Assembly: GCF_006385175.1 (NCBI RefSeq)
Contig: NZ_VFIY01000018.1
Coordinates: forward strand, 682,001 to 746,000
Length of the DNA stretch: 64,000 nt
Source of the DNA: Emcibacter nanhaiensis
GTDB taxonomy: Bacteria > Pseudomonadota > Alphaproteobacteria > Sphingomonadales > Emcibacteraceae
Reading direction: 5' to 3'
This document shows positions 950 to 33,647 of this stretch, piece by piece; the first letter of the stretch is position 1, and each line of letters starts with the position of its first letter. Both the position numbers and the translations under genes were made by a program. The notes under the pieces were generated by a model, which saw nothing but the letters and a program-made list of their open reading frames with translations, had not been told where the DNA came from and made no database searches.

Positions 950-1858
950 ATGCAAAATCTTTCCGGCAAAACTGCCTTTATCACCGGTGGTGCCAGCGGG
1001 ATCGGCCTCGGCATTGCCAAGGCCTTGCTCAGCCGCGGTATGAACCTGGTCATCGCCGATATCCGCGATGATCACCTGGAAGACGCCCAGAAAGAACTGA
1101 ACAGCCCGGACAAGGTGCTGGCCCTGAAGCTGGACGTCACTGATCGGGCTGCCTTCAAGGCTGCCGCCGACGCTGCCGAGGAACGTTTCGGCAAAATCCA
1201 CATCCTGGTCAACAATGCCGGCGTCGCTGTGGTCGGACCGGTGGAGCAAGCCAGCTATGATGACTGGGACTGGACCATGGGCGTCAACCTGGACGGCACC
1301 ATCAATGGCGTGGTCACCATGCTGCCGCGCATCCTCGCCCACGGCGAAGGCGGCCACATCGTCAACACCGCGTCCATGTCCGGCTTCCTGCCCCACCCGG
1401 GCACGGTGATTTACACCACCTCGAAAGCGGCCGTGATCGGCATGGCCGAAGCCATGCGCGCCGAGCTCGAAGGCCGGGGCGTGATCGTTTCCGCCTTCTG
1501 CCCGGGTCCGGTGCAGTCCAATATCGCCGAGGCCGGCAAAACCCGGCCGGACTCTATGTCCGACACCGGCTATGCAGAATCAGACAAGCGGCGCCAGCAG
1601 GGCGGTGACTTCTTCCATCTCTATAAAACCAAGGAAGAAATCGGTGAGCGGGTTGCCCAGGGCATCGAGAATGACGAGCTTTACATCCTGACCCACAGCG
1701 AATTCACCGAGGGCGTGGAGGCCCGCACCCAGGCCATGCGCGCCGCCGTGCCGGACAACCTGCCACAGAATGAGGAACTGAAACAGGTCTTTGCGCCGCT
1801 GTTTTTCAACCAGGCCCATGCGGATGAGCTGGAACGGCAGAAGAAGCTGAAGAAATAA
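950..1858 (+). CDS. LigD-like short-chain dehydrogenase (SDR) 1
   Basis: A 302-residue classical SDR. The TGGASGIG nucleotide-binding motif is at residues 12-19, the NNAG segment is present, and the catalytic YxxxK is Y155/K159. A shared stretch (YDDWDW, GVNLDG, then SNIAEA...RP after the active site) and the long C-terminal tail resemble LigD-type Calpha-dehydrogenases. Those enzymes oxidise the benzylic alcohol of beta-aryl-ether lignin dimers with NAD+. Classical SDRs are usually about 250 residues, so the extra ~50 residues also fit the LigD type. An AGGAG site precedes the ATG. The next SDR starts 12 bases after the stop, so the two are co-transcribed. The LigD resemblance is from recalled sequences, and the substrate is inferred. 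Confidence 0.88.
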   Translation: MQNLSGKTAFITGGASGIGLGIAKALLSRGMNLVIADIRDDHLEDAQKELNSPDKVLALKLDVTDRAAFKAAADAAEERFGKIHILVNNAGVAVVGPVEQASYDDWDWTMGVNLDGTINGVVTMLPRILAHGEGGHIVNTASMSGFLPHPGTVIYTTSKAAVIGMAEAMRAELEGRGVIVSAFCPGPVQSNIAEAGKTRPDSMSDTGYAESDKRRQQGGDFFHLYKTKEEIGERVAQGIENDELYILTHSEFTEGVEARTQAMRAAVPDNLPQNEELKQVFAPLFFNQAHADELERQKKLKK

Positions 1859-1870
1859 CGGAGACGTAAC

Positions 1871-2773
1871 ATGAAGGATTTTGCAGGACGTACCGCCTTC
1901 GTCACCGGCGGGGCCAACGGCATCGGCCTTGGTCTGGCCCGGGCGCTGCTCGACGAGGGCTGCAAGGTGGCCATCGCCGACATCCGCGAAGACAGCCTGG
2001 AAGCCGCGCTCAAGACCCTGGACAACCGCAACGTCATGGGCGTGAAGCTGGATGTGGCGTCCCGTGAAGGATATGCCAGGACAGCCGATGAGGTCGAGGA
2101 ACAGATGGGCCCCGTCTCGCTGCTGTTCAACAATGCCGGCATCAACCTGTTCCAGACCATTGACGAAAGCACCTATGACGACTGGGACTGGGTGCTGGGC
2201 GTCAACCTGCATGGCGTGATCAACGGCATCCAGACCTTTGTCCCGCGCATGAAGGAACGCGGTCTCGGCGGGCACATTGTCAACACTGCGTCGATGGCGA
2301 GCTTCCTGTGCGGTCCGGCGCCGGGCATCTATAACTGTTCAAAGTTTGCCGTGCGCGGCATGTCCGAATCCCTGCGCTACAGCCTCGCCCCCCAGGGCAT
2401 CGGCGTCTCCGTGCTGTGTCCGGGCCTGGTGAAAAGCTATATCTATGCCAGTGATTCCGTTCGTCCGGAAAATCTTGCCAACCGGGGCACCCCGGAAAAC
2501 CAGGCCTTCACCGACCAGCTGGCCAATGTGCACCAGTATGGCATGGAGCCCGATGAAGTGGCCGCCAAGGTTTTGGACGCGATCCGGGCCAACCGCTTCT
2601 ATATTTTCTCCCACCCGGAATTCAAGGAAGAGCTGCAGGAAGTGTTCGATGAAATCATTGCCGCTTTCCCGCCGATGGGAGATCTGGACGACAATGCCAA
2701 ACAACGGCTTGAATTTGAAAAAGGCCGCCGGGAAAGTTACCGCAAGGCCCGCCAGGAAGCCCGGGGCGAATAG
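1871..2773 (+). CDS. LigD-like short-chain dehydrogenase (SDR) 2
   Basis: A 300-residue classical SDR with TGGANGIG at residues 12-19 and catalytic Y154/K158. It shares the YDDWDW/GVNLHGVINGI block and the long C-terminal extension of its upstream neighbour, and has the HQYGMEP segment also seen in LigD-like proteins. The two SDRs are clearly paralogous. In sphingomonads, Calpha-dehydrogenases of opposite stereo-preference occur as sets (LigD, LigL, LigN, LigO), so a tandem pair may divide the enantiomers of a dimer; this is inference. A GGAGA site precedes the ATG, and a strong hairpin follows the stop, ending the plus-strand transcript. Confidence 0.88.
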   Translation: MKDFAGRTAFVTGGANGIGLGLARALLDEGCKVAIADIREDSLEAALKTLDNRNVMGVKLDVASREGYARTADEVEEQMGPVSLLFNNAGINLFQTIDESTYDDWDWVLGVNLHGVINGIQTFVPRMKERGLGGHIVNTASMASFLCGPAPGIYNCSKFAVRGMSESLRYSLAPQGIGVSVLCPGLVKSYIYASDSVRPENLANRGTPENQAFTDQLANVHQYGMEPDEVAAKVLDAIRANRFYIFSHPEFKEELQEVFDEIIAAFPPMGDLDDNAKQRLEFEKGRRESYRKARQEARGE

Positions 2774-2795
2774 CCCTCTTCCTTTCACCAAACAA

Positions 2796-2831
2796 AAAAG
2801 CCGGACGATGGCAATCCGTCGTCCGGCTTTT
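2796..2831. terminator. Bidirectional intrinsic terminator
   Basis: A perfect 13-base inverted repeat (AAAAGCCGGACGA / TCGTCCGGCTTTT) with a 10-base loop. A and T runs flank it, so it can stop transcription from either side. It lies between the convergent SDR 2 and LigF-like GST genes. Confidence 0.85.
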
Positions 2832-2847
2832 CATTTGGTAAACTGTT

Positions 2848-3609
2848 TTATTTGGCGTGGCCGGTAAAGGTGCGCAGCGCCGGATTGGTATGGTCCGGCA
2901 TTTCCAGCGCCGCTTTCACGCCGGGGCGGGCAGTCATGCGATCACGCCATTCCACCAGCCGGGGCGCCCGGTTCGGAATATCCATTTCCGGGAACATGCG
3001 TTCCACCATCATGCCGCAATGGCAATAGAAGTTGATGTCGGCCAGGGTATACATGTCGCCGGCCAGCCAAGCGCTCTTGCCGAGCTGGTCTTCCACTTTG
3101 TCCACAGCCGCCTCGATCTTGGCCGTCGCGTCCGCCAGCTGTTCTTCGGTAAAGCCGGCGCGGGCGGTTTTCCATTTCTTGCGCTGGTCGGCGAGCGGGA
3201 TCCGCTCCATCAGCTTTTCGAATTCGCCGCTTTCGATGCCGCGGGCAATCACACCGACCATGCGGTGCCAGCCGTGCATGGACACATGGTTCATGACATG
3301 TTCGTCAATGAATTTGTTCCAGAAACGCATGCGGGCCTTGCCCACCGGATCATAGGGGCGCAGGGGGATTTCCGGAAACACGTCTTCCAGATATTCATTG
3401 ATCACCGTGGTATGGGTAATGATGGTGCCGTTATGGTCCAGCACCGGCACCTGGCCTTCCGGATTGATCTTGATGAACCATTCCTCATGCTGTTCGAATT
3501 TATGCAGGTCCACATAAACGCTTTCGAACTCCAGTCCCTTTTCCTTCAGCGGAATCATCGACTTCAGCGAATTCGCCGCCGGTTCCGCGTGATAATATTT
3601 CAGAGCCAT
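2848..3609 (-). CDS. LigF-like glutathione S-transferase (putative beta-etherase)
   Basis: 253 residues: a thioredoxin-like N-terminal domain (about 1-85) followed by an all-helical GST C-terminal domain. The N-terminal half closely resembles LigF beta-etherases: ANSLK, EKGLEFE, KFEQH, then KINPEGQVP with the cis-proline, and YLEDVFPE...LRPYDP. LigF attacks the beta-carbon of an alpha-keto beta-aryl ether with glutathione and releases a phenol. The GGAGG ribosome site is formed by the last codons of the upstream SDR, which ends 3 bases before this ATG, so translation is probably coupled. It is the last gene of a three-gene minus-strand unit (amidohydrolase, SDR, GST). Activity and stereo-preference are inferred. 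Confidence 0.88.
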   Translation of the reverse strand: MALKYYHAEPAANSLKSMIPLKEKGLEFESVYVDLHKFEQHEEWFIKINPEGQVPVLDHNGTIITHTTVINEYLEDVFPEIPLRPYDPVGKARMRFWNKFIDEHVMNHVSMHGWHRMVGVIARGIESGEFEKLMERIPLADQRKKWKTARAGFTEEQLADATAKIEAAVDKVEDQLGKSAWLAGDMYTLADINFYCHCGMMVERMFPEMDIPNRAPRLVEWRDRMTARPGVKAALEMPDHTNPALRTFTGHAK

Positions 3610-3612
3610 GCT

Positions 3613-4407
3613 CTATCCTCCAGTAATGATTGTTCCCAGAATGCCGCCATCAACCGCCCAGGACTGCCCGTTTACATAACGGGCGGCATCGGACAGCAGA
3701 AAAGCAGCCACATTCCCTAATTCCTCTGACGTGCCCACACGCCCCTGCGGGGCCATGCGACCTATTATTTTTAATCCTTCGTCATAGTTGCCGCCGCCCA
3801 GCTGGTCGGCTAGGTCGGTCAGCATTTCGGACTCAATCACCCCCGGCAGGATGCAGTTAACCCGGACGTTGTGGCGGGCTACCTCGGCCGCGGCCGAACG
3901 CACCACGCCCAGCACCGCATGCTTGGAGGCGTTATAGCCCACCGTATCGGAAAAGCCCCGTTCGCTGGCCAGGGATCCGGTGGCCAGGATAGCGCCGTCC
4001 CGGCGCTCAATCATGGACGGCAACACCCGCTTCATGGCCCAGAACAGGCTTTTCAGGTTCAGGGTCATGATGTCGTCGAAGTCTTCGTCGCTATAGTCAA
4101 CGATCGAGGCCCTGGGGCCGCCGGCACCAGCGTTGGCGAACAGGCCGTCAACGGGACCAAAACGCTCCTCGGCGGCATCAATGGAGGCGATCACCTGGTC
4201 CCGCACCGACATGTCGGCGGCATAATAGTCCGCCTCACCGCCGGCCTGGCGGATTTCCTCTACCGCCTCGGCCAGCCTGGCTTCCCGGCGCGCCACCAGC
4301 ATGACCCGCGCGCCAAGCCCGGCCATCACCTTGGCCGCGCCCAGGCCGATGCCGCTGGAGCCACCGGTGACGATGATATGCTTGCCGTCGAGGGTGAAGT
4401 TGTTCAT
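3613..4407 (-). CDS. Classical short-chain dehydrogenase
   Basis: 264 residues from the chosen ATG (MNNFTLDGKH), which leaves 16 bases after the upstream stop. An ATG 45 bases further up would overlap that gene and adds residues with no SDR character. The TGGSSGIG motif lies near the N-terminus, NAGAGG replaces the usual NNAG, and YNASK provides the catalytic Tyr and Lys. The length and the C-terminal VNGQSWAVDGG are those of a standard 250-residue NAD(P)-dependent SDR, unlike the long LigD-like SDRs nearby. It probably oxidises or reduces an alcohol or ketone in the same pathway. The specific substrate is unknown. Confidence 0.85.
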   Translation of the reverse strand: MNNFTLDGKHIIVTGGSSGIGLGAAKVMAGLGARVMLVARREARLAEAVEEIRQAGGEADYYAADMSVRDQVIASIDAAEERFGPVDGLFANAGAGGPRASIVDYSDEDFDDIMTLNLKSLFWAMKRVLPSMIERRDGAILATGSLASERGFSDTVGYNASKHAVLGVVRSAAAEVARHNVRVNCILPGVIESEMLTDLADQLGGGNYDEGLKIIGRMAPQGRVGTSEELGNVAAFLLSDAARYVNGQSWAVDGGILGTIITGG

Positions 4408-4423
4408 TCCGGATCCGAAACTC

Positions 4424-5293
4424 TTACTTAAGACCCAGGACCCGGGCCGCATTTTCCTTGAGGATCAGCGGCAGCACTTCTTCCTTGAAGCCCACTTCCT
4501 TGGCGGCCTTGATCCAGGCCTGGGGCGTGATCAGCGGGAAGTCGGAGCCGAACAGCATTTTGTGCCGCAGCTGACCGTTGGCATAACGGATCACTTGCGG
4601 CGGGAAATATTTCGGCGACCAGCCGGACAGGTCGATAAACACATTGTCCTTGTGCAGGGCCATGGACAGGCTCTCATCGGTCCAGGGCCAGCTCGGGTGT
4701 GCCATGATGAATTTCATATCCGGGAAATCGGCCGCCGCGTCGTCCACCAGCATCGGCTGGCCGTATTTCAGCTTCACGCCGCCGCCACCGGGCATGCCGG
4801 TGCCCATGCCGGAATGGCCGGTATGGAACACGGCCGGCAACTTGTATTCGGCAATCACTTCATACAAAGGATAGGCCATGCGGTCGGACGGATGGAAGTC
4901 CTGCATCGGCGGATGGAACTTGAAGCCCTTGACGCCATATTCCTCGATCAGCATGCGGGCTTCCCGCGCGCCATATTTACCCTTGTGGGGATCGATGGAG
5001 GCAAAGGGGATCATGATATCTGAATTGTCGCGGGCAAATTCGGCGATTTCCTCGTTGCGGATGCGCTTTGCCCCGAAGGCGGATTCAATGTCCACCGTAA
5101 ACATGACAAAGGCCACATTCTGCTCCCGGTACAGCTCGATGGTCTCGGGAATGGTGGGCCGCTTTCGATCAGCCTTGAAATATTTGGACGTGGCATCCAT
5201 GAATTCGCTCATCACCGGATCTTCGGGATCACAGCAGGACACTTCCGCATGCACATGCACATCAATGGCAATGAATTTATCAAGGTCGATCAT
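4424..5293 (-). CDS. Amidohydrolase-2 / ACMSD-superfamily metal-dependent hydrolase or decarboxylase
   Basis: 289 residues with the TIM-barrel metal-site signatures of the amidohydrolase-2 (ACMSD) group. These are DVHVH near residue 12, GFKFHPP, VFHTGHSG, IMAHPSW and the late GSDFP aspartate. Family members hydrolyse ring-opened aromatics or decarboxylate aromatic acids in the cytoplasm with a Zn or Mn ion. It leads a minus-strand unit with an SDR and a LigF-like GST, which points to a late step for lignin-derived acids. Hydrolase and decarboxylase cannot be told apart from the sequence alone. The ribosome site is weak. Confidence 0.82.
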   Translation of the reverse strand: MIDLDKFIAIDVHVHAEVSCCDPEDPVMSEFMDATSKYFKADRKRPTIPETIELYREQNVAFVMFTVDIESAFGAKRIRNEEIAEFARDNSDIMIPFASIDPHKGKYGAREARMLIEEYGVKGFKFHPPMQDFHPSDRMAYPLYEVIAEYKLPAVFHTGHSGMGTGMPGGGGVKLKYGQPMLVDDAAADFPDMKFIMAHPSWPWTDESLSMALHKDNVFIDLSGWSPKYFPPQVIRYANGQLRHKMLFGSDFPLITPQAWIKAAKEVGFKEEVLPLILKENAARVLGLK

Positions 5294-5321
5294 CTGGTTT
5301 CTCTATTTCTTATCAACGGAC

Positions 5322-5350
5322 AAAAAGCCCCTCCCCCGGAAGGGAGGGGC
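5322..5350 (-). terminator. Intrinsic terminator downstream of the aldehyde dehydrogenase gene
   Basis: On the minus strand, GCCCCTCCC and GGGAGGGGC form a 9-base GC-rich stem with a 6-base loop, followed by five T. It lies 12 bases past the aldehyde dehydrogenase stop and separates that unit from the amidohydrolase unit. Confidence 0.85.
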
Positions 5351-5361
5351 CGAAGGACTGA

Positions 5362-6870
5362 TTACAGCTGAATAATAACGCTCTTCAGCTCGGTATAGGC
5401 TTCAACGCCCTGGCGGGCCTGCTCGCGGCCGAGGCCGGACTGTTTAAAGCCGCCAAACGGCAGAGCCGGGTCGATCACGCCGTGGCAGTTGCCCCACACG
5501 GTACCGGCCTTGATTTTGGCAGCCAGCCTGTGCATGGCGGTCACATCCTTGGTCCAGATGCCGGCGCCGAGGCCGTAGCAGGTGTCGTTGGCAGCCTTGG
5601 CCACTTCGTCGATGTCGTCAAAGCGCTGGGCCACCACAACCGGGCCGAAGATTTCTTCCTGCACCACGCTCATGTCCGGCTTCACATCCACCAGCACGGT
5701 CGGGTTCACATAGTAACCGTCGGCAGACGGAGCGTCGCCACCCACGGCCACGGAAGCCCCGGCTTTCTTACCGGCTTCAATGTAGCCCATGACGCGATTG
5801 AACTGCTCGTCGGACACCAGCGGGCCCATGTGAGCTTCCGGATCCAGGGACGGCCGCGGGGACCAGAAGTCAGCCGCACCGGCCACGCCTTCGATCACTT
5901 TGTCGAAGATGGAGCTGTGAGCGAACAGACGGGAACCGGCAACACAAACCTGGCCGGAGTTAAAGAAGATCGCACCGGCACAACCGGCACCGGCAGAGGC
6001 CACATCCACATCAGGCATCACCACAACCGGGGACTTGCCGCCCAATTCCAGGGTCACCCGTTTCAGAGTATCGGTCGCATTCTTGTTGATGATCTTGCCC
6101 ACTTCAGTGGAACCGGTGAAGGCGACTTTGTCCACATCGGGGTGTTTAACCAAGGCGTCACCGGCGGTATGGCCGTAACCGGTGATGATGTTGATAACCC
6201 CCGGCGGGAAACCGGCTTCGGCCACCAGGTCGGCCATGCGCAGGGCGGTGAGCGAAGTCTGCTCGGCCGGCTTCAGGATCAGGGTACAACCGGCAGCCAG
6301 GGCCGGAGCCACTTTCAGGACCGCCATCAGCAGCGGGAAGTTCCAGGGCACGATCTGGGCGGCAACGCCGACCGGCTCGCGACGGACATAGCTGTGCACG
6401 GTGCCGCGCGGCATCGCCATCGGCTCGATCATGTCACCGCCGAGCTTGGTGGCCCAGCCGGCCATATAATGCATCATGCCGGCAGAGGCGGGAATATCCA
6501 CCGCACCGGCCATGCCTTTGGGCTTACCGTTGTCGATGGCTTCCAGTTCGGCCAGTTCGTCGGCATTCTGGCTGATCAGGTCGGCCAGCTTGTGCATCAT
6601 GGTTTCACGGGCGATCGGCGGCAGGTCGGACCAGCGGCCGTCGTCAAAGGCGGCGCGGGCGGCGGCGACAGCACGATCAACGTCTGCCTTTGTGGCTTCG
6701 GAAATCTGGCTGACTTCCTGGCCGCTTGACGGGTCAACCACGGCGATAGTTTCGTCACCGGAGGGGCTGACCCATTCATTGTTGATAAAGTGCGCCGGCT
6801 TGCGGTCCAGGGCTTTCTGAGCTTTCTCGGAATAAGAAAACTGCTTGTAAATATTGCTCATTTCATTCAT
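5362..6870 (-). CDS. NAD(P)-dependent aldehyde dehydrogenase
   Basis: 502 residues, the usual length for the family. PWNFP is at residues 175-179, the FTGSTEVG cofactor loop at 251-258, the general base is E275 in LELGGKSP, and the nucleophile is C309 in SGQVCVAGS. The enzyme oxidises an aldehyde to a carboxylic acid in the cytoplasm. It is the last gene of a minus-strand unit with a PQQ alcohol dehydrogenase and a Nu-class GST, so it may finish the alcohol-to-acid oxidation of the side chain released from a beta-aryl ether, or act on vanillin-type aldehydes. The ATG has an AGGAAG site; a second ATG three codons later is possible. Confidence 0.92.
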   Translation of the reverse strand: MNEMSNIYKQFSYSEKAQKALDRKPAHFINNEWVSPSGDETIAVVDPSSGQEVSQISEATKADVDRAVAAARAAFDDGRWSDLPPIARETMMHKLADLISQNADELAELEAIDNGKPKGMAGAVDIPASAGMMHYMAGWATKLGGDMIEPMAMPRGTVHSYVRREPVGVAAQIVPWNFPLLMAVLKVAPALAAGCTLILKPAEQTSLTALRMADLVAEAGFPPGVINIITGYGHTAGDALVKHPDVDKVAFTGSTEVGKIINKNATDTLKRVTLELGGKSPVVVMPDVDVASAGAGCAGAIFFNSGQVCVAGSRLFAHSSIFDKVIEGVAGAADFWSPRPSLDPEAHMGPLVSDEQFNRVMGYIEAGKKAGASVAVGGDAPSADGYYVNPTVLVDVKPDMSVVQEEIFGPVVVAQRFDDIDEVAKAANDTCYGLGAGIWTKDVTAMHRLAAKIKAGTVWGNCHGVIDPALPFGGFKQSGLGREQARQGVEAYTELKSVIIQL

Positions 6871-6904
6871 GACATGCTTCCTGCTTTTGAGTTCAGTTAT
6901 TCAT

Positions 6905-7564
6905 TCAGACTAAAAGTTTTTTGCCGCCTTCAAGGGTCTTGTCGTCCTGGGCGCCCAGGTCGGTTGGCGGCGGAACCATTTTGCCTCTCTGCACCGCGGG
7001 GCGGGAACCGACCAGGTCGATCCAGCGCTGCAGGTCATCAAGGCCATCGATATTGACTCCGGACCAGGCATAGGCATGGGCCCATGTCCAGTTGGCGATA
7101 TCGGCAATGGAATAATCGCCGGCCAGATATTCATTGTCGGCCAGGCGGGTGTTCAGTACTTCCAGCAGGCGACGAGTCTCCCGCTGGTATCGTTCGATGG
7201 CGGCCGGAATTTTTTCCGGGAAATAGCGGTAAAATACATTGGCCTGCCCCATCATCGGGCCAAGGCCGCCGATCTGGAACATCAGCCACTGGGTCACCAG
7301 GCTTCTGCCCTTGATATCGGTCGGCATCAGCTTGCCGGTTTTCTCCGCCAGATACATGAGTATAGCACCGGATTCGAAAACCGTGAAACCATCATCGTCA
7401 ATGGCCGGAATACGGCCATTGGGATTGATCTTGAGGTACCAGGGTTCCTTCTGCTCCCCCTTGCTGAGCTGGATGTGGTGGACTTCATAGGGAAGCTCCA
7501 ATTCCTCCAGGGCAATGGAGGCTTTCCAGCCGTTCGGGGTTTCAGAAGTATAAAGTTTGATCAT
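6905..7564 (-). CDS. Nu-class glutathione S-transferase (putative glutathione lyase)
   Basis: 219 residues. The N-terminus has TPNGWK and [10 protein letters not shown] with the cis-proline, followed by [15 protein letters not shown], then [11 protein letters not shown] and YSIADI. These blocks are those of the Nu-class proteins YfcG/YghU, which use two glutathiones. A Nu-class GST of Novosphingobium aromaticivorans is known to remove glutathione from the product of beta-etherases, the role LigG plays elsewhere. The ATG overlaps the stop of the PQQ dehydrogenase by 4 bases. Given LigF-like enzymes in the same window, the glutathione-lyase role is a good inference, but a general disulfide reductase is possible. 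Confidence 0.88.
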
Positions 7565-9672: not shown

Positions 9673-9761
9673 CTCTCATGTCCTCCCAAAATTCAGCGGT
9701 TACTCAAAATTCCGGCACTCTCCCAAAATTTCCGGACTCAAACGCTACTATATCAAACGTT

Positions 9762-9774
9762 AGTATTCCATACT
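9762..9774. promoter_or_regulatory. Palindromic operator-like site upstream of the PQQ dehydrogenase operon
   Basis: AGTATTCCATACT is a perfect 5-base inverted repeat around TCC, set in GTTAGTATTCCATACTTTTT (9759-9778), about 90 bases upstream of the PQQ dehydrogenase start. The same core, with two of three spacer bases changed and an extended palindrome, occurs at 15564-15582. That repetition is the reason for calling it a regulator site. The protein that binds is unknown; the MarR protein of this window is one candidate. Confidence 0.5.
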
Positions 9775-9861
9775 TTTTACGTTCCGCGCGTCAGCCTGGA
9801 TCTCACCGGGAGAAACTTTGGGCCCGCAACATAAGATGCTGCGCGCCCCCAGTCTGGAATT

Positions 9862-10641: not shown

Positions 10642-11408
10642 TAGTTTGCTCCCCGCTCAAGAATATGCACCCGTTTGACCATGTCCGTCTTGCCCATACT
10701 CCAGATATATTTGGTGGCCGGACGTTCATAGATTTTCCGCAGCCACTCCATGATGTGCGGCGTGCGTTCATCATTGGCCAGTTCCGGCTGGGACAGCGGC
10801 AGGGCGTAGCCCAGGTTAAAGCCGTTCACATCGGCCAGGCTGTATTCATCACTGGCCAGCCATTTGTGCTTGGACAGCTCAGTCTCAAGCATATCAATGC
10901 CCACGGACACGCGACGCATGGATTCGGTCATTTCCTCTTCGCTGAAGGTGCCGTAAATAGCCTTGCGCCAGGCAATGCGGCGCTCACGCATCGGGATGCG
11001 GTCAATGGCGGCTTTCAGCTCTTCGGGGTCCTTGCTGCGCACGGACGGCCCGACGAAGAAACTCCAGCCGATCATGCTGAAGGACGGCGCCAGCCACTGG
11101 TCCATGAATTTCATCCACCAGCGCACCCGCAGACGATCATAGGGGTCTTCCGGCATCAGCGCCGGGCCATCAAAGGTCTCATCCACATACTCCATAATGG
11201 CTGTGGACTCGGTCAGAACCTTGTCTCCGTGCAGCATGGCGGGAATAGTTCCCTGCGGATTGATCTCGAGATACTCCGGCTTGTGCTGATCGAAATTCAG
11301 AAGATCGAGGTAATGACTCTTAAATTGGACACCTTTTTCGGCCAAAGCGAGCATGGGCTTACCCGAATTTGCGTTCGGCTCCCAGTGAAACAGCGTGACA
11401 TCCGTCAT
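10641..11408 (-). CDS. LigF-like glutathione S-transferase
   Basis: 255 residues from the chosen ATG (MTDVTLFHWEPNANS), which sits behind a GGGAGG site; an ATG 69 bases upstream adds residues unlike any GST. The N-terminal domain has ANSGKP, EKGVQF, NFDQH, EINPQGTIP with the cis-proline, and TESTAIMEYVDE. The C-terminal domain has the YSLADVNGFNLG block. It resembles LigF-type beta-etherases more than LigE. It is the first gene of a minus-strand pair with the divergent GST, and it faces the P450 gene across a 500-base AT-rich region. Cleavage of a lignin-type beta-aryl ether is the most likely job, inferred from family and context. Confidence 0.86.
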   Translation of the reverse strand: MTDVTLFHWEPNANSGKPMLALAEKGVQFKSHYLDLLNFDQHKPEYLEINPQGTIPAMLHGDKVLTESTAIMEYVDETFDGPALMPEDPYDRLRVRWWMKFMDQWLAPSFSMIGWSFFVGPSVRSKDPEELKAAIDRIPMRERRIAWRKAIYGTFSEEEMTESMRRVSVGIDMLETELSKHKWLASDEYSLADVNGFNLGYALPLSQPELANDERTPHIMEWLRKIYERPATKYIWSMGKTDMVKRVHILERGAN

Positions 11409-11911
11409 GTTTTTTCCGCCTCCCTTGTTTGCGGCAGTTACCTTTTTGTCCGGCAGCCCTTCCAGCCGCCATTTCATCCCCGTTCGAAGTCCGGTCTCCT
11501 CTGAGATATACCTGACGAGAGACCTTCTTCCCTGCCCAGCTCATTTCCGTACAAAAATGAACCAAGCCGTTGATTCCAAATAAGTTTAAACTATCCTGTT
11601 TTTAGGGAAGAACAGACATGGGAAAAAGTCAGAACCAGGCTCCGCCCATAGAACAGACCCCGGTGTCCCCCAAGTTGACTTCGCCCTTCTCCACTATTGA
11701 CTAGTTTATCTCATATTTGTATTTTTAATTTGTGTTACATACAGTTTTTTTAACTAACATGTCAAGCCAATTAGAGCAAATATATTCGCAACACATGTTA
11801 TCAAAATTTACTCAAATTGGATACAACTTGACAAAATAACAATAAAAAAATTTTCGGGAGACAAAACGGGCAAACAGCCCATTCACCCCTGTATGTATTA
11901 GGAGGATATTC
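11409..11911. other. Divergent AT-rich promoter region between GST and P450 genes
   Basis: About 500 bases, much more AT-rich than the flanking genes, especially 11700-11860. It must hold the promoters of the minus-strand GST pair and the plus-strand P450. A TTGACA lies at 11828-11833, but I see no convincing -10 box at the right distance. A CTAAC half-site at 11754-11758 recalls the operator-like palindromes nearby. A 28-codon ORF at 11618-11704 is listed separately. Confidence 0.5.
11618..11704 (+). CDS. Possible small protein of 28 residues
   Basis: ATG preceded by AGGGAAGA at good spacing, then 28 codons to TAG (starts MGKSQNQAPP, ends FSTID). The sequence is hydrophilic and proline-rich, with no motif I recognise. 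It lies in the promoter region between the GST pair and the P450. It could be a leader peptide, the stump of a lost gene, or chance. The ribosome site is the only positive evidence. Confidence 0.25.
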   Translation: MGKSQNQAPPIEQTPVSPKLTSPFSTID

Positions 11912-13105
11912 ATGCCCGCAGAGACGCCGTCTCACGTCCGGCCGGAACAGGTCGTGGACTTCAATTTCTATCGCCCTTGCACGCCCGGTGGCGACCCTTA
12001 TCTCGCCTGGCAAAGGCTTCAGGATGGCCCGGAAATGATCTGGACACCCCACAATGGCGGTCACTGGATCGCCACCCGCGGCGAACAGATCAAGGAAATC
12101 CTGACCGACTACGGCCGCTTTTCCTCGCGCCATGCCTTTATTCCCATCATTCCCGAACGCCCCCGCGGCCTGCCGCTGGAATATGACCCGCCGGAACATG
12201 CGCCGCTGAAAAAGATGCTGGCGCCCGCGTTCCTGCCCAAGGCAATCCAGCACTGGTCCGATGAGGCCCGCGCGCTGGCGGCGGAACTGGTCGAAGGCTT
12301 CATCGATCAGGGCTGGTGTGAATTCATCGAAGACTTCGCCCAGCAGCTGCCGATCATCATATTCCTGCGTATCCTCGACCTGCCGATGGAAGACCGCGAG
12401 CCGCTTCTGGCGGCGGTCAATTCCGGCCTCCGGCCAGTGGACGAGAAAACCCGGAAGTGGGGCCGCGACTATCTCAACAATTATATCGTCGAGCTGGTGG
12501 CGGAACGGCGCGAGAATCCGCGTGAAGAGATCCTCAGTGCGGCGCTGCATACCGAAATAAACGGCAAGCTTTTGGATGATGAAATGGCCTACGGCCTGAC
12601 CAGCGGCCTGCTGGGCGGCGGGCTTGATACCGTCGCCTCAAGCATGGGCTGGATGGCCCTGTTCCTGGCGGAAAACCCGGGCCACCGCCAGCAACTGGTT
12701 GACGATCCGTCCCTGATTCCCAATGCGGTGCAGGAGCTGCTGCGCCGCTATTCCATCCCCAACATCGCCCGGGTGGTCAGGGAGGACATGGACTATCACG
12801 GCGCCCAACTGAAACAGGGCGAACAGGTCCTGATGTCGGGCTGCCTGTATGGCCTGGACCCGAATATTTTCGAGAATCCCATGGCGGTTGATTTCACCCG
12901 CCGGGATGCCTCGCGGCATATGAGCTACAGCACCGGCATCCATCGCTGCATCGGCGCCAAACTGGCCGACCAGGAGCTGCAGATTTTCCTGCAGGAATGG
13001 CTGCCGCGGATTCCCGACTTCCGGCTCGACCCGGACCATCCGCCGGAGATGGTCACCGGCATTGCCCACGGCCTGAACAAGCTGCCGCTGCTCTGGGATG
13101 CCTGA
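11912..13105 (+). CDS. Cytochrome P450
   Basis: 397 residues, the size of soluble bacterial class I P450s. The I-helix carries GGGLDT with D239-T240, ELLRRYS supplies the K-helix ExxR, and the heme loop is YSTGIHRCIG with the cysteine ligand C346. A strong AGGAGG site precedes the ATG. Such enzymes take electrons from a ferredoxin and hydroxylate or O-demethylate a substrate; CYP199- and CYP255-type enzymes demethylate lignin-derived methoxy aromatics. No ferredoxin or reductase gene is adjacent, so partners must come from elsewhere. Its place within the lignin-type cluster suggests an aromatic ether substrate, which is inferred. Confidence 0.93.
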   Translation: MPAETPSHVRPEQVVDFNFYRPCTPGGDPYLAWQRLQDGPEMIWTPHNGGHWIATRGEQIKEILTDYGRFSSRHAFIPIIPERPRGLPLEYDPPEHAPLKKMLAPAFLPKAIQHWSDEARALAAELVEGFIDQGWCEFIEDFAQQLPIIIFLRILDLPMEDREPLLAAVNSGLRPVDEKTRKWGRDYLNNYIVELVAERRENPREEILSAALHTEINGKLLDDEMAYGLTSGLLGGGLDTVASSMGWMALFLAENPGHRQQLVDDPSLIPNAVQELLRRYSIPNIARVVREDMDYHGAQLKQGEQVLMSGCLYGLDPNIFENPMAVDFTRRDASRHMSYSTGIHRCIGAKLADQELQIFLQEWLPRIPDFRLDPDHPPEMVTGIAHGLNKLPLLWDA

Positions 13106-13110
13106 TCCAT

Positions 13111-13152
13111 AAAAATCCGCCTGCCTCCCGGCATGTCTCGGGAAGCAGGCGG
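13111..13152 (-). terminator. Intrinsic terminator for the amidohydrolase operon
   Basis: Arms CCGCCTGCCTCCCG and CGGGAAGCAGGCGG pair with one mismatch around an 8-base loop. On the minus strand the stem is followed by five T (13111-13115). It lies between the convergent P450 and amidohydrolase genes and may also slow plus-strand transcription. Confidence 0.8.
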
Positions 13153-13192
13153 TTCAGTCTTTGGCTATAAAGCCAGAGGAATTAGGTTCGAT

Positions 13193-14323
13193 CTAGAGCC
13201 GGAACACCCGTTCGGCATTTTCCTGCATCAGCATCTTTTTATGTTCCGGACTGATGTCCATGCGGTCATAGGCGGCCACTTCGTCGCCAGACTGCTGGTA
13301 GGGATAGTCCATGGCGTAAATCACCCGGTCCGGCCCCATCACATCCATGCAGAATTTGATGGCCGGCTCCCAGCCCACGCCGCTGGTGGTGATCCAGATA
13401 TTCTTCTTGAAATAATAGCTGATAGGATGTTCCAGCGTCACCGGATCCTGGCCGCCGCGCAGACCGGGCACCCCGTCGGCATTGGACTGCATCCAGTCAA
13501 AACGATAAAGATGCAGCGGCATGCATTCTCCGAGATGGCCGATCACCAGCCGCAGGTCGGGATATTTGTCAAACGCCCCGGACAGGATCAGGCCCATGGT
13601 GTGAATCCAGACATCATGGGGGAAACCGCCGAGCGCCCCGGTCATGCCGCGGAACTGATAGGGTTCGTTGTAGCGGGGCGCGGTCGGATGGATATAGAGC
13701 GCCGCATCATTGGCCTCCAGTGCCGCCAGGATCGGTTCGAACTCTGCCTCGTCCAGGTAACGCCCCTTCCAGTGGGAATTGAGCACCGCACCACTGAGCT
13801 TCAATTCCTGCATGGCGCGGTCGATTTCCGCCACCGCGCCATCCACATCCTGGGGCTGGAAGGCGGCCAGGGCGGAAAAGCGGTCGGGGTATTTGGCACA
13901 GGCTTCGGCGGCAATATCGTTGGACATACGGGCCAGACGGTTGCCCTCTTCCGGCTCCAGCACCTGCACCCCGGGCGAGGTCAGTAACAGCAACTGCCGG
14001 TCAATGCCGAGCTCATCCATCCGGGCGATACGCTTATCGCCCAGGTCAAACAGGATGTCCTGCAAGGCAGACATGCCGGCGAACATATTGGCCATGGCCA
14101 GCGAGGCATCGTCTGAGGCCCGGCCGCTGTTATGCAGCCTCACCTGGGCTTCGACCAGCTCGGGAAAACTCCAGGCTTCCTCGGTGGCAATGCGCTTATA
14201 GGGAGCGTTGTAGTCAATTTCCGCTTCAGGCGGCGCAAGTCCCACATGGGAGCGTGGGTTAATCACATTATTGCCAAGGCCGCGCATGCCTTTTTCACTG
14301 TTGTCGGAATTATCTTGCGACAT
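13193..14323 (-). CDS. ACMSD-superfamily amidohydrolase, LigW / gamma-resorcylate decarboxylase-like
   Basis: 376 residues. An unusual ~45-residue N-terminal stretch precedes KRIATEEAW, the metal-binding start motif of gamma-resorcylate and 5-carboxyvanillate (LigW) decarboxylases. Later motifs fit the same group: IHPTAP, GHLGECMP and the metal aspartate in YAMDYPYQ. These enzymes remove a ring carboxylate without a cofactor other than a divalent metal. It is the last gene of a minus-strand unit with two NTF2-like proteins. In the LigW setting the substrate would be a carboxylated vanillate-type ring, though hydrolysis of a ring-fission product is also possible. Confidence 0.85.
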   Translation of the reverse strand: MSQDNSDNSEKGMRGLGNNVINPRSHVGLAPPEAEIDYNAPYKRIATEEAWSFPELVEAQVRLHNSGRASDDASLAMANMFAGMSALQDILFDLGDKRIARMDELGIDRQLLLLTSPGVQVLEPEEGNRLARMSNDIAAEACAKYPDRFSALAAFQPQDVDGAVAEIDRAMQELKLSGAVLNSHWKGRYLDEAEFEPILAALEANDAALYIHPTAPRYNEPYQFRGMTGALGGFPHDVWIHTMGLILSGAFDKYPDLRLVIGHLGECMPLHLYRFDWMQSNADGVPGLRGGQDPVTLEHPISYYFKKNIWITTSGVGWEPAIKFCMDVMGPDRVIYAMDYPYQQSGDEVAAYDRMDISPEHKKMLMQENAERVFRL

Positions 14324-14365
14324 GAGCTCTCTCCTTAAACCAGCCTGCTTGACGCAGGCCTGGCA

Positions 14366-14821
14366 TCAGAACATGGTGTTATTATTGGCGGAGATTTCCG
14401 GCACCGGCTGCAACACATCCCAATGTTCGGCAATCCTGCAGCCTTCGACACGAAAGATATCGACCACGGCAAAGCCGCGATCCTCCGATGTCGGCTTAGC
14501 ATGCATATGCACTGCAACCAGATCGCCGTCAGCAATGACCCGCTTTACATCATACTTGAAATCGGGCTGAGTCGAGAGCCAGCCGCTAAGGGCGTCGATG
14601 GCCGGTTGGCGACCGTCGGGGGCCACCGGGTTATGCTGGATATAGTCTTCCCGCACCCAGGTTTCGAAAGCCTCCTTTACCTTCAACTGGTCATAGAACA
14701 GTTTGCCGAAGGCTTCGACCACCTGGCGCGGCGTTTTGTCACAGGATGCCCCCTCCCCGGCGAAAGCTTGGGGGCACACCAGGGCGGCCATCAGAACGCC
14801 CGCGTAGAATGCCCGCATCAT
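14366..14821 (-). CDS. Secreted NTF2-like (SnoaL-type) protein
   Basis: 151 residues with a clear signal peptide (about residues 1-21, ending AFA), so it is exported to the periplasm. The mature part has the cone-shaped NTF2/SnoaL pattern: an N-terminal helix with FGKLFYDQL, VREDYIQHNP, then VIADGDLVAVHMHAK and VVDIFRVEGCRIAEHWD. SnoaL-like proteins with the QHNP motif are often of unknown function, and some act as cyclases, isomerases or lyases. It lies 3 bases after the larger NTF2-like gene and 42 before the amidohydrolase. A periplasmic step in dimer processing is possible. Function is not known. Confidence 0.8.
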   Translation of the reverse strand: MMRAFYAGVLMAALVCPQAFAGEGASCDKTPRQVVEAFGKLFYDQLKVKEAFETWVREDYIQHNPVAPDGRQPAIDALSGWLSTQPDFKYDVKRVIADGDLVAVHMHAKPTSEDRGFAVVDIFRVEGCRIAEHWDVLQPVPEISANNNTMF

Positions 14822-14824
14822 GGC

Positions 14825-15520
14825 TCACTCCTCGAAGGGTTTAAAGGCCTTACCCATCACCGGATGAGCATAATGGTAAGGCACGTCATGGCGATTCGGC
14901 CAGGTCAGGCGCGGTTCGGGCAGCAGCTCGTCCGGCCCGATCGGATTGCCGGGATAGATTTCCACCGCCGGCTGCAGATGAGCCTTGGTTTTGGCCCAGC
15001 CCTTGTCATAGTCCGCCTGCCACTGGACCATATAGTCGAGGCGCTTGATCTTCCACACCCCGTCCACGCAGACATAATCGTTCTCATAGATTCCGGCTTC
15101 ATAGAACTGATCCGGCAGACCCTCGGGCTTATATTCCCGGTCTTCATGCACCCCGCCCATCAGCACGGCGCGGAAGCGGCCCTTGGCGGTTTTGCGGTCC
15201 GGCGCCACGGTAATAATGTCCTGCATCTGGAAATGATCGAGCAGGAAGCCATCCTCGGGCCCCGGCTTGCCGTGGGTGAAATAATTCTGGAACCAGGTCT
15301 TGTAGAGGCGGGCGACTCCTGCCTTGCCTTTATAAATGCCGGACAGGAAGATCACTTCCCCGTCATCGGCAAACAGCTGCACCACTTCGTCATACTGGCA
15401 GAAGTCGATATAATAGCCGTAAGCATAGTGAAGTTTGCGGATCGCCTGCTGGTCTTCCAGCATGCCCACACGATTGGTCAGAGCCTGCAGCTCGGCCCTC
15501 AGATCAGAGTTGTCAGTCAT
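14825..15520 (-). CDS. NTF2-like protein of the size of the diarylpropane lyase LdpA
   Basis: 231 residues without a signal peptide. The N-terminal helix (QQAIRKLHYAYGYYID) and the following YDEVVQLFADD and ENDYVCVDGVWKIKRLDY segments define a SnoaL/NTF2-like fold, followed by a ~50-residue proline-rich tail. LdpA of Novosphingobium is an NTF2-like gamma-formaldehyde lyase of about this length that turns diarylpropane-1,3-diols into lignostilbenes. A lignostilbene-dioxygenase-like gene lies 1 kb away, which makes this role attractive. I cannot align it to LdpA here, so the assignment rests on fold, size and neighbourhood. It is the first gene of the minus-strand unit. Confidence 0.8.
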   Translation of the reverse strand: MTDNSDLRAELQALTNRVGMLEDQQAIRKLHYAYGYYIDFCQYDEVVQLFADDGEVIFLSGIYKGKAGVARLYKTWFQNYFTHGKPGPEDGFLLDHFQMQDIITVAPDRKTAKGRFRAVLMGGVHEDREYKPEGLPDQFYEAGIYENDYVCVDGVWKIKRLDYMVQWQADYDKGWAKTKAHLQPAVEIYPGNPIGPDELLPEPRLTWPNRHDVPYHYAHPVMGKAFKPFEE

Positions 15521-15563
15521 TTTCCCTTTTCCCTATATTTTTTGGTGTTTATGAATAACATTT

Positions 15564-15582
15564 GTTAGTATGCTACACTAAC
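15564..15582. promoter_or_regulatory. Palindromic operator-like site between the NTF2-like and SDR genes
   Basis: GTTAGTATGCTACACTAAC has perfect 6-base arms (GTTAGT/ACTAAC) around seven bases. It lies in the 100-base divergent intergenic region, 44 bases before the minus-strand NTF2-like start and 39 before the plus-strand SDR start, so it can control both. Its core matches the site at 9759-9774 (GTTAGTATnCnAyACT). Confidence 0.6.
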
Positions 15583-15620
15583 TAATAATCAAATCAACAT
15601 CAATATAGAGAGAAATTTTT

Positions 15621-16535
15621 ATGTCCTGGGAAAACAAGACAGCTTTCATTACGGCCGGGGTGTCCGGCATCGGCTTCGGCCTGGCCCGGGCCCTGAGCAA
15701 CGCCGGCATGCGCTTGGCGCTCAGCTATCGCAACGAGGACCACAAGGAGCAGGCCGCCCGCTGGTTTGCCGACCAAGGGCGCGAGCAACCATTGTTTTTG
15801 AAACTGGACGTCCAGGACCGGGACAGATTCGCCGAAGTCGCCGACGAGGTGGAGAATCATTTCGGCAAGCTGCATGTGCTGATCAACAACGCCGGGGTCA
15901 GCGTGTTCGGCCCTACCGACGAAGCCAGCTATGCGGACTATGACTGGATCATGGGGGTCAACTTCGGCGGCGTGGTCAACGGACTGGTCAGCTTCATTCC
16001 CAGGATCAAGGCCCATGGCGAAGGCGGCCACATCGTCAATGTGGCCAGCATGGCGGCCTTCCTGCCCGGCCCCCAGGCCGGCATCTATACCGCCAGCAAA
16101 TTTGCCGTGCGCGGCCTGACCGAGAGCCTGCGCTACAATCTGGCGCCCTACAACATCGGTGTGTCGCTGATGTGTCCGGGCCTGACCCGCACCAATGCCT
16201 GGGACAGCGCCACGCGACGGCCCGACGAGTTCAAGGACAGTGGTTTTGAACCTGTGGAAGCGGCGGAACTGGAACAGTTCGGCACCGCCTTCGAGGCCGG
16301 CATGGACCCGCTGGAAGTGGGCGAAAAGACCTTGCGCGGCATGACCGAAAACCGCGGCCTGATCCTGACCCATCCGGAATTCGCCCAGGACTTCAGGGAA
16401 ATTTACGAGACTTCCCTGGCCGCCCTGCCTGACGAGGAAATCCCGGAAGGACGGCTGCATATCGAAAGACTGCGCCGGGAGGCCATGAAGGCGGCGGAGG
16501 CCGGCATCAAAACCGGCCTCAAGGACCTGACCTGA
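15621..16535 (+). CDS. LigD-like short-chain dehydrogenase (SDR) 3, altered glycine motif
   Basis: 304 residues with the same architecture as the two LigD-like SDRs at 950-2773: NNAGVS, SYADYDWIMGVNFGG, catalytic Y156/K160 and a long C-terminal tail. The nucleotide-binding loop reads TAGVSGIG, so the first glycine of TGxxxGxG is alanine; the other two glycines are intact. The change is encoded cleanly (ACG GCC GGG) and the rest of the gene is undamaged, so the enzyme is probably active, perhaps with changed cofactor affinity. It is transcribed divergently from the NTF2-like unit and converges on the lignostilbene-dioxygenase-like gene. Confidence 0.88.
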   Translation: MSWENKTAFITAGVSGIGFGLARALSNAGMRLALSYRNEDHKEQAARWFADQGREQPLFLKLDVQDRDRFAEVADEVENHFGKLHVLINNAGVSVFGPTDEASYADYDWIMGVNFGGVVNGLVSFIPRIKAHGEGGHIVNVASMAAFLPGPQAGIYTASKFAVRGLTESLRYNLAPYNIGVSLMCPGLTRTNAWDSATRRPDEFKDSGFEPVEAAELEQFGTAFEAGMDPLEVGEKTLRGMTENRGLILTHPEFAQDFREIYETSLAALPDEEIPEGRLHIERLRREAMKAAEAGIKTGLKDLT

Positions 16536-16542
16536 AGTCGGG

Positions 16543-18018
16543 TTACTTTCTGACCGACTTGTCGAGCTCGGCCTGCGGCACCCACCAGCCATGCACCTGG
16601 GGCCGCAGCCGGTGCGGGATGGTGATTTTCGCCACCGGCCCGGCCGCCACATTGCCCGCGTCGAAAATCCAGGCGCCCTGATAGAGGTCATCCTCGCCCT
16701 GCATCATGTCGACGAAGGAAATCAGCCAGCCTTCATGCCCGTCCCGGGCCGACGGCACATGCACCGGCTCGTGGATGCCGCTCAGCGGCGGGAAGGCATA
16801 GGCGTCGATTCTGCCGTTGTCCGGCTCGATCCGCAGCAGCAGGTTGAACTCGGCACCGACCACACCGCCCATCAGCGGCGGACCCTTGAGCTCCGGGTTG
16901 ACGCTCAGGTACCAGCCGCGCTGGTAGGGCCGTCCCTGGTCTTTGTCGGCAATGCGCGGCATATCGCCCGGAGGGCCGAGCGTCACCTGGGTCAGGTTGT
17001 CGTCACTGCCGGTCATGTCCATGGTCCAGCGGATCAGGCCGCCGCCCAGTTCCTGCGGCGGCACATTGAGGCCGGACGCCCGCTGGATAAAGGGAAAAGC
17101 GTTGCAGTTGGACATGCAGTGGTCCATATGCACCCGCCCCTCTTCATCTTCGAAACAGTTCATCATGTGATAGGTGGACACGCCCTTCGGCCCCCGGAAC
17201 CAGCGCATTTCGGAGACATCGCCGTAGCGCGGCATGATGCCGACCCAGCTTTCCAGGTCCATGTGGTGCACCCAGTGATCGCCGCCGGCTTTGAGCCGCT
17301 CCAGGTCAGCCGTGGTCGGATAGACCGGGAACACTGCATAATTTTCGGTGATGACAAAATCATGCATCATGGAACAATAGGGCACATCGAACCATTGTTC
17401 GTGGGTGAGCGTACCCTCCCTGTCGGCGATGCAGTAGGCCACCTTGGAAGAGGCCAGGCCGTCGGCTTCATAGCCGAAGAAGAACATTTCCTTCGTTGCC
17501 GGATCGATACGCACATGGGCAGTCATGGTTTCCGACTTCAGGACGCCGCCGAAATCATAGGAGCCGAGGGTCTCCAGCGTATGCGGATTCATTTCATAGG
17601 CGCGGCCGTCCTCCTTGGTCATCAGCAGGCGGCCCCCGTGCCACACCGGGGTGGTGTTGGCGACGGTGCGGTCGACGCCGTCCACTGACGGGTCATCAGT
17701 AAAGGGATTGCGATAGCGGCCGAACAGCGCCTTGCCGGCCGCAACTTCGGCCTGGTGCCGGGCGGTCTCGACAAAGCGGATGTCGAAATCCACCTGGCCG
17801 TCGGGCCCGAAATAAAGCCGGGACAACATGCCGTCGCCGGACAGGGCGGTGTCATCCTCGAACATCGGCGGAAACGCCGGATCCGGCACCGCACGATAGA
17901 AGGCGCCGCGCACCTCCGCCGGAATTTCGCCTTCCACCTCGAGGTTTTTCAGGCTGTATTCCTCGCCGATTGGCGCATTGATCCCGGTAAAGTCCGGGGT
18001 ATCGGGATATTGTTTCAT
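16543..18018 (-). CDS. Carotenoid-oxygenase-family protein, lignostilbene dioxygenase-like
   Basis: 491 residues, a seven-bladed propeller. The four iron-binding histidines can be placed at H168 (MTAHVR), H219 (MMHDF), H284 (TYHMMN) and H476 (VHGWWV). Y102 (RYRNPF) and K135 (MTKEDG) sit where lignostilbene dioxygenases have the Tyr and Lys that bind the substrate's 4-hydroxyl. These enzymes split the central double bond of hydroxystilbenes with O2 and give two aromatic aldehydes such as vanillin. No signal peptide is seen. The CmcJ-like gene lies 86 bases upstream on the same strand. Together with the NTF2-like protein this suggests a diarylpropane (beta-1) branch. Confidence 0.92.
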   Translation of the reverse strand: MKQYPDTPDFTGINAPIGEEYSLKNLEVEGEIPAEVRGAFYRAVPDPAFPPMFEDDTALSGDGMLSRLYFGPDGQVDFDIRFVETARHQAEVAAGKALFGRYRNPFTDDPSVDGVDRTVANTTPVWHGGRLLMTKEDGRAYEMNPHTLETLGSYDFGGVLKSETMTAHVRIDPATKEMFFFGYEADGLASSKVAYCIADREGTLTHEQWFDVPYCSMMHDFVITENYAVFPVYPTTADLERLKAGGDHWVHHMDLESWVGIMPRYGDVSEMRWFRGPKGVSTYHMMNCFEDEEGRVHMDHCMSNCNAFPFIQRASGLNVPPQELGGGLIRWTMDMTGSDDNLTQVTLGPPGDMPRIADKDQGRPYQRGWYLSVNPELKGPPLMGGVVGAEFNLLLRIEPDNGRIDAYAFPPLSGIHEPVHVPSARDGHEGWLISFVDMMQGEDDLYQGAWIFDAGNVAAGPVAKITIPHRLRPQVHGWWVPQAELDKSVRK

Positions 18019-33640: not shown

Positions 33641-33647
33641 ATCAGCC

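Follow-up and report, generated by a model that had tools for sequence, protein, structure and literature searches.

Cleavage of lignin dimers has been described for several bacterial enzyme sets. For β-aryl ethers (β-O-4), the published BaeAB pattern places baeA upstream of an overlapping baeB, BaeA having Asn14 and Ser15 and BaeB having Ser14 with no Asn before it, and NaLigF2 (Saro_2865) has been reported as a β(S)-etherase (PMC6369299). For β-1 dimers, the SYK-6 reductases LdpB and LdpC, which belong to the short-chain dehydrogenases/reductases (SDRs), supply erythro-diguaiacylpropane diol (erythro-DGPD) to LdpA (PMC12997858), the protein of structure 8ABV (PMC11476836). For β-5 dimers a set of PcfL, an aldehyde dehydrogenase (ALDH), LigW and a dioxygenase has been described, with Maricaulis flavus listed as its sole carrier outside Sphingomonadales (PMC11323797); PcfL and LdpA share 44% identity. 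Here we analysed a 64-kb stretch of DNA (the window), which is part of the 782-kb contig C18 in the 3.96-Mb genome of Emcibacter nanhaiensis. Judged by the families of the encoded proteins, positions 950–18018 most probably form a chromosomal lignin-dimer island with β-O-4 and β-1 branches, with a β-5 set upstream (rough probability 0.82).

A near-continuous run of minus-strand genes spans 950–18018 and encodes, from its upstream end, a lignostilbene dioxygenase, LdpA, a second SnoaL protein, the amidohydrolase AMH2, BaeA, BaeB, a pyrroloquinoline quinone (PQQ) dehydrogenase, a short Nu-class glutathione S-transferase (GST), an ALDH, AMH1, SDR3 and GST_F. The plus strand carries SDR4, between the LdpA and dioxygenase genes, a cytochrome P450 and the tandem SDR1-SDR2. 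Most intergenic spacings are below 100 bases, and the genes overlap at two points, by four bases between the Nu-class GST and PQQ genes and by one base, at 10641, between baeA and baeB. Families were assigned with NCBIfam and Pfam models, and together with PDB searches these recovered within 950–18018 every protein class that an earlier sequence-only reading had listed. The features are as follows.

950–1858, plus strand: SDR1, LigD-family Cα-dehydrogenase, 302 amino acids; PDB best matches are the Cα-dehydrogenases 4ya6 and 4yae, with 4y98 next but one
1871–2773, plus strand: SDR2, LigD-family Cα-dehydrogenase, 300 amino acids; PDB 3ioy (413 bits), then LigD-family Cα-dehydrogenases
2848–3609, minus strand: GST_F, putative LigF2-type β-etherase with Asn13 and Ser14; 46% identity to LigF 4xt0 (E 1e-57)
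3613–4404, minus strand: SDR3, classical SDR, not LigD-type; best models of glucose dehydrogenase/FabG type; listed open reading frame (ORF) to 4452
4424–5293, minus strand: AMH1, Amidohydro_2 enzyme (Pfam) with invariant metal-type residues H13, H15, H157, H160, H199 and D251
5362–6870, minus strand: NAD-type ALDH, StyD-like (NCBIfam/Pfam), positional counterpart of Saro_2869, for which in vitro oxidation of the aldehyde DC-L has been described (PMC11323797)
6905–7564, minus strand: short (YfcG-like) Nu-class GST, 219 amino acids, candidate lyase for the glutathione conjugate of β-hydroxypropiovanillone (HPV); PDB 4eci 303 bits, NaGSTNu 5uun 141 bits
7561–9672, minus strand: lipoprotein-type PQQ quinohaemoprotein alcohol dehydrogenase with a CGVCH haem site; TIGR03075 640 bits, cut-off 480
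9862–10641, minus strand: BaeB-like subunit with Ser14 and Pro13, no Asn; best PDB match LigF 4xt0 (E 3e-17), 56% identity to Sphingobium xenophagum BaeB, BaeB clade 100/100
10641–11408, minus strand: BaeA-like catalytic subunit with Asn14 and Ser15; best PDB match LigF 4xt0 (E 4e-46), 74% identity to S. xenophagum BaeA, BaeA clade 99/100
11409–11911: 503-base gap from which baeA and the P450 gene diverge, a likely promoter region judged by spacing only
11912–13105, plus strand: cytochrome P450 (Pfam p450)
13193–14323, minus strand: AMH2, probable LigW-family decarboxylase paralogue with an EEA motif; 43% identity to LigW Saro_0799 4inf (structure search; model pLDDT 73, moderate)
14366–14821, minus strand: second SnoaL/NTF2-like protein (Pfam SnoaL_2), apparently exported, with an apparent signal peptide
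14825–15520, minus strand: LdpA-like SnoaL_4/NTF2 protein of the diarylpropane γ-formaldehyde lyase type, 231 amino acids; 65% identity over 223 residues to the 8abt/8abv series
15621–16535, plus strand: SDR4, third LigD-family SDR (NCBIfam/Pfam), 304 amino acids, divergent from ldpA
16543–18018, minus strand: NOV2-type lignostilbene α,β-dioxygenase; NF053780 equivalog 875 bits, cut-off 650

The alcohol and aldehyde dehydrogenases named in the sequence-only reading are the PQQ enzyme at 7561–9672 and the ALDH at 5362–6870, and its P450 is the p450-family protein at 11912–13105. The minus-strand ORF 15600–16691 has no family matches and was rejected as a shadow ORF, likewise the ORFs 11801–12550, 13133–13987 and 14423–15568.

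Three of the GSTs had been described as LigF-like. All three indeed have LigF 4xt0 as best PDB match, but a maximum-likelihood tree places them as LigF2-type, BaeA and BaeB, and we rejected the assignment as three LigF paralogues. GST_F, which is 46% identical to SYK-6 LigF, forms a 13-row clade with cluster-linked orthologues (support 100/100) apart from that protein. Its place in the gene order corresponds to that of NaLigF2 (Saro_2865), the Novosphingobium aromaticivorans cluster being compared by its published locus tags only. The baeA ORF is listed to 11477, with a start more likely at about 11408, and baeA lies directly upstream of baeB. In gene order, overlap, active-site residues and identity (>50%) the pair agrees with the published BaeAB signature; the S. 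xenophagum reference locus belongs to NBRC 107872, the same species as the assayed SxeBaeAB. By analogy with these relatives, we infer that GST_F is a LigF2-type β(S)-etherase and BaeA-BaeB a β(R)-etherase heterodimer.

A search with a BaeA profile yielded 80 named loci, N. aromaticivorans DSM 12444 not being one of them, and the 51 with full-length BaeA were used for counting neighbours within 10 kb of BaeA, at identity thresholds and in a phylogenetically uneven sample. BaeB was found in 47 of these loci, the PQQ enzyme in 41, AMH1 in 39, SDR3 in 20, GST_F in 17 and the short Nu-class GST in 7. Since the loci were fetched by BaeA alone, the recurrence of BaeB, the PQQ enzyme and AMH1 argues against clustering by chance. 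Orthologues of the SDR1-SDR2 tandem lie near BaeA in six loci (L064, L073, L086, L127, L093 and L099), and relatives of the P450 adjoin BaeA in two (L060, 65% identity; L049, 53%).

The three long LigD-like SDRs of the sequence-only reading were found at 950–1858, 1871–2773 and 15621–16535, with PRK06194 as the best NCBIfam model for each. Membership of the LigD family follows from PDB searches for SDR1 and SDR2, and for SDR4 only from the shared PRK06194 model and 45% identity. SDR3, at 3613–4452 in the ORF list, was rejected as a LigD-like SDR on account of its best models; it shares 35% identity with SDR1 over 184 residues.

In the β-1 branch, the identity to the LdpA structure supports placing the NTF2-like protein in the LdpA type; two LdpA/PcfL-like paralogues of this genome reach 47% to 8abt, compared with 65% for the window protein. 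The gene for the second SnoaL protein, which the earlier reading had missed, lies three bases from ldpA and has relatives in 10 of the 51 BaeA loci. The dioxygenase passes the curated NOV2 model, in line with its description as lignostilbene-dioxygenase-like. Aligned with LSD4, it keeps the four iron-ligand histidines and the equivalents of Tyr101 and Lys134 (residues from PMC8191317), with Leu at the position of Phe59 and Tyr at that of Ser283. The divergent SDR4-LdpA pair recurs in 20 of the 25 loci that have LdpA near BaeA, a few genomes being counted twice, with SDR4 at 66–80% identity. From this linkage we propose SDR4, an SDR as LdpB and LdpC are, as a candidate diarylpropane ketone reductase of the LdpB/LdpC type. 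Elsewhere in the genome, away from other dimer genes, contig C17 (L190:10022–10738) encodes a third LdpA/PcfL-family protein with 54% identity to the window LdpA.

By family membership the proposal that β-aryl-ether and stilbene routes are packed together holds in outline: rather than falling into unrelated GST, SDR or SnoaL subfamilies, the GSTs group with LigF2, BaeA and BaeB, the NTF2-like protein with LdpA, the dioxygenase with NOV2 and the SDRs with LigD/L/O. The 17-kb extent given for the island proved too narrow, because a probable β-5 branch lies directly upstream. The adjoining 20 kb (C18:662001–682000) encode an LdpA/PcfL-like SnoaL_4 protein, an ALDH, a LigW-like amidohydrolase, a transporter of the major facilitator superfamily (MFS), a tannase-like protein, a lignostilbene dioxygenase (model NF053778, 873 bits, cut-off 800), a TonB receptor and a pair of a flavoprotein (FAD-oxidase) and a cytochrome c. 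The SnoaL_4 protein is assigned to PcfL from its linkage and from an identity to LdpA of about 47%. Beside BaeAB, the S. xenophagum locus carries this PcfL/ALDH/LigW/dioxygenase set too, at 71–85% identity, and 11 of the 51 BaeA loci have two or more of the three genes for PcfL, LigW and dioxygenase. The upstream PcfL/FerD/LigW/dioxygenase-like set is likely to be a β-5 branch that continues the island. The published Maricaulis flavus (PMC11323797) is presumably the Marinicaulis flavus of locus L056.

A second lignin cluster lies on contig C10 (165000–184900) and encodes a LigF-like GST, a LigD-like SDR, a LigE-like GST (424 bits, cut-off 440, C-terminus shortened), a LigO-like SDR, an MFS transporter, a P450 with ferredoxin and a NOV2-type dioxygenase. 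The genome also encodes LigA-family subunits of protocatechuate 4,5-dioxygenase.

From characterised relatives of each enzyme a pathway can be inferred by analogy. SDR1 and SDR2 would oxidise the Cα alcohol of arylglycerol β-aryl ethers, after which, with glutathione, the LigF2-type GST would cut the β(S) ether and the BaeA-BaeB heterodimer the β(R) ether. The short Nu-class GST may release the thioether-bound glutathione and so yield HPV-type ketones, whose side-chain alcohol the PQQ dehydrogenase and the ALDH would oxidise, with AMH1 processing a downstream product. In the β-1 branch, LigD-family SDRs including SDR4 would set the stereochemistry of the diarylpropane diol via the ketone, LdpA would eliminate water and formaldehyde to form lignostilbene, and the NOV2-type dioxygenase would cleave this to two vanillin-type aldehydes, to be taken on by extradiol pathways of the genome. 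The upstream set of PcfL-, FerD-, LigW- and lignostilbene-dioxygenase-like proteins would serve β-5 dimers. Within this scheme the roles of AMH1, AMH2, SDR4, the P450 and the short Nu-class GST are hypothetical.

Several points weigh against this pathway. LigF2-, SDR-, LSD- and SnoaL-type enzymes are known to accept broad substrates, so that the dimer cannot be told from identity alone. Saro_2870, the counterpart of the PQQ enzyme, was assayed with DC-A and is not among the enzymes reported as active (PMC11323797), and growth of N. aromaticivorans on HPV depends on HpvY, not on this PQQ enzyme. Moreover, Saro_2865, the counterpart of GST_F, has also been named DesD and proposed as an isomerase of the syringate pathway (PMC8091115, PMC12314914). 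The region might then serve the catabolism and detoxification of aromatics in general or of syringate, with GST_F as DesD and the remaining GSTs, SDRs and SnoaL proteins acting on other plant phenolics, dimers not being the main substrates. The deletion of Saro_2865 as desD in 12444PDC (PMC8091115), the predicted isomerisation by DesD of the CHMOD-derived product (PMC12314914) and the reduction of monoaromatic diketones by Lig dehydrogenases (PMC8612281) are all in line with such a role. We nevertheless regard it as highly improbable: a scan of window proteins yielded no DesC, the α/β-hydrolase that partners DesD, the BaeAB, LdpA and NOV2-type dioxygenase that occur together here have only dimer reactions described in the publications consulted, and in metagenome-assembled genomes (MAGs) labelled Gammaproteobacteria the GST_F gene belongs to compact BaeAB-GSTnu-AMH1-GST_F-SDR2-SDR1 sets.

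The lignin-dimer island, which we prefer, raises the question of its origin. Although E. nanhaiensis is in the same order as the Sphingomonadaceae, it belongs to another family, in which BaeA is absent from the other 32 of 33 genomes. Its closest BaeA is that of Parvularcula NAT21 (Parvularculaceae, 79% identity), and this relationship together with the patchy distribution suggests horizontal transfer. Of the 51 loci, 14 have an LdpA of ≥50% identity no more than 10 kb from BaeA (13 at ≥58%), and the combination of β-ether genes with LdpA is therefore not unique. BaeA, LdpA and the β-5 set are found together in only two of the 51 loci (L055 and L056), both from Parvularculaceae. One could take the acquisition as recent, with independent β-O-4, β-1 and β-5 modules joined by gene exchange, each keeping its own substrate and the whole not expressed as one pathway; this agrees module by module with our explanation and denies the joint function. 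It would fit the confinement of BaeA to one genome of the family, its nearest relative in Parvularculaceae and the way in which LdpA, the β-5 set, the short Nu-class GST and SDR1-SDR2 recombine beside BaeA in differing subsets of loci. Open frames, intact active-site residues, intact one-directional gene runs with overlaps and the recurrence of the triple combination in two Parvularculaceae loci argue for a joint function instead, so that separate modules appear possible but doubtful.

The Nu-class GST of the sequence-only reading does belong to the Nu class, but it is YfcG-like and not of the NaGSTNu type. We rejected it as a NaGSTNu orthologue: 4eci is closer, the score with the YghU model NF008731 (168 bits) is below the cut-off of 325, and the position of NaGSTNu Tyr224 is a gap. 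The Thr-Pro-Asn motif of NaGSTNu, which holds its Thr51 and Asn53, is kept as T9-P10-N11, and an invariant Tyr114 aligns with NaGSTNu Tyr166, a tyrosine that EcYfcG does not have. Because no YghU-type GST over the model cut-off is encoded in this genome, the short enzyme is a reasonable lyase candidate, possibly representing a third type of glutathione lyase. Its linkage to BaeAB in 11 other named loci (55–75% identity) points in the same direction, as does the absence of a YghU-type enzyme from 6 of the 12 genomes with the short GST beside BaeA compared with 2 of the 17 without (Fisher p 0.04, MAG incompleteness uncorrected). The other six of the 12, however, encode both, the short GST, with 4eci as its closest solved relative, has the size of YfcG, and the efficiency of EcYfcG is below that of NaGSTNu by a factor of about 10,000 (PMC5892560); with the missing Tyr224 equivalent, this would also fit a stress or disulfide reductase in the role of YfcG that lies here by chance and is not the glutathione lyase, an explanation that concerns this one step only. 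We give it somewhat less than an even chance.

Of the two enzymes that had been called ACMSD-type, both are Amidohydro_2 proteins, but AMH2 is a probable LigW-family decarboxylase; it is linked to LdpA across loci and seems to be a LigW paralogue rather than a clear orthologue. AMH1 could be assigned neither to LigW (12–14% identity) nor to DesC, which is an α/β hydrolase. Its orthologues (n = 29) have a mean column identity of 82% and keep the HxH motif and further His and Asp residues. The predicted structure is a TIM barrel (pLDDT 90), with the uncharacterised 3irs as nearest solved fold, followed by LigW and related decarboxylases at 12–18%. In 401 genomes of the order, AMH1 was present in 19 of 19 genomes with a BaeA orthologue (E <1e-95) and in 24 of 382 without (hypergeometric probability 5e-21, kinship ignored). 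Homologues of VceA/VceB are missing from the HPV branch of N. aromaticivorans, and for bacteria that lack VceA/VceB the published pathways leave open which enzymes act on HPV, vanilloyl acetaldehyde and vanilloyl acetate (PMC11837543). As it is tightly tied to BaeAB, AMH1 is a concrete candidate for a step in the HPV branch. A more specific version, in which AMH1, as a metal-dependent decarboxylase or C–C hydrolase, has vanilloyl acetaldehyde or vanilloyl acetic acid as its substrate and works together with the short Nu-class GST in place of NaGSTNu/LigG, is unlikely as it stands; if true, the island would encode a self-contained β-O-4 route with two uncharacterised enzymes.

The island is flanked in the window by the following genes.

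1–906, plus strand: C-terminal part of an MFS transporter (Pfam MFS_1 on 175–906), whose start was seen at the end of the adjoining upstream 20 kb
18105–18923, minus strand: CmcJ/NvfI-family oxidoreductase (NF041278 285 bits, cut-off 80), with relatives in 17 of the 51 BaeA loci
19225–19752, minus strand: MarR-family regulator (Pfam)
19895–20878, minus strand: AraC-family regulator (Pfam)
21277–22545, plus strand: MFS transporter (Pfam), possibly an uptake protein

Further along the window, a chemotaxis set (methyl-accepting chemotaxis proteins, CheB, CheR and CheA) at 32495–41372 lies fairly near the catabolic genes. At 42545–47001 an FMN-dependent α-hydroxyacid dehydrogenase stands beside a benzoylformate decarboxylase (792 bits, cut-off 493) and an MCRA-family hydratase, possibly a mandelate-type pathway, and a second PQQ-dependent alcohol dehydrogenase (57213–59138) is found near a LysR regulator (62419–63327).

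Taken as a lignin-dimer island, the locus would hold matching enzyme sets for two lignin bonds with a third just upstream. Enzymes for β-O-4, β-1 and β-5 cleavage would then be encoded within about 45 kb, a handy source for the engineering of lignin funnelling. Its assembly and conserved partners may be useful for finding missing steps of lignin breakdown, with AMH1 and the short Nu-class GST as the main leads.

Compared with described systems, the locus appears to be a real lignin-dimer catabolic island, a variant, unusual in its combination of genes, of the dimer clusters already known from sphingomonads. The N. aromaticivorans cluster Saro_2865–2873 has the same order of LigF2, ALDH, PQQ enzyme, BaeB and BaeA (Saro_2865, 2869, 2870, 2872 and 2873; PMC6369299, PMC11323797), whereas the window has in addition the short Nu-class GST within this run, the flanking SDR1-SDR2 and, upstream of BaeA, LdpA, SDR4 and the NOV2-type dioxygenase. 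With BaeAB as characterised in N. aromaticivorans, PP1Y and S. xenophagum it shares the overlapping pair, the N14/S15 and S14 residues and 74% and 56% identity, whereas the window pair lies outside Sphingomonadaceae and its BaeB has Pro instead of Ala before Ser14, as in the S. xenophagum locus. The short Nu-class GST has the Nu class, the Thr-Pro-Asn motif and the Tyr166 equivalent in common with NaGSTNu, which, unlike the 219-residue window enzyme, has about 288 residues with N- and C-terminal extensions and Tyr224. With the β-1 pathway of LdpA and LsdA/NOV2 the window has in common an LdpA at 65% identity and the NOV2 equivalog, but here the genes are adjacent to each other and to BaeAB, and a divergent LigD-family SDR gene lies between those for LdpA and the dioxygenase. 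The PcfL-LsdD-FerD-LigW pathway for β-5 dimers is matched by a SnoaL_4 protein, an ALDH, a LigW-like amidohydrolase and a lignostilbene dioxygenase, a set that in E. nanhaiensis has a dioxygenase fitting NF053778 and is directly joined to the β-O-4 and β-1 genes.

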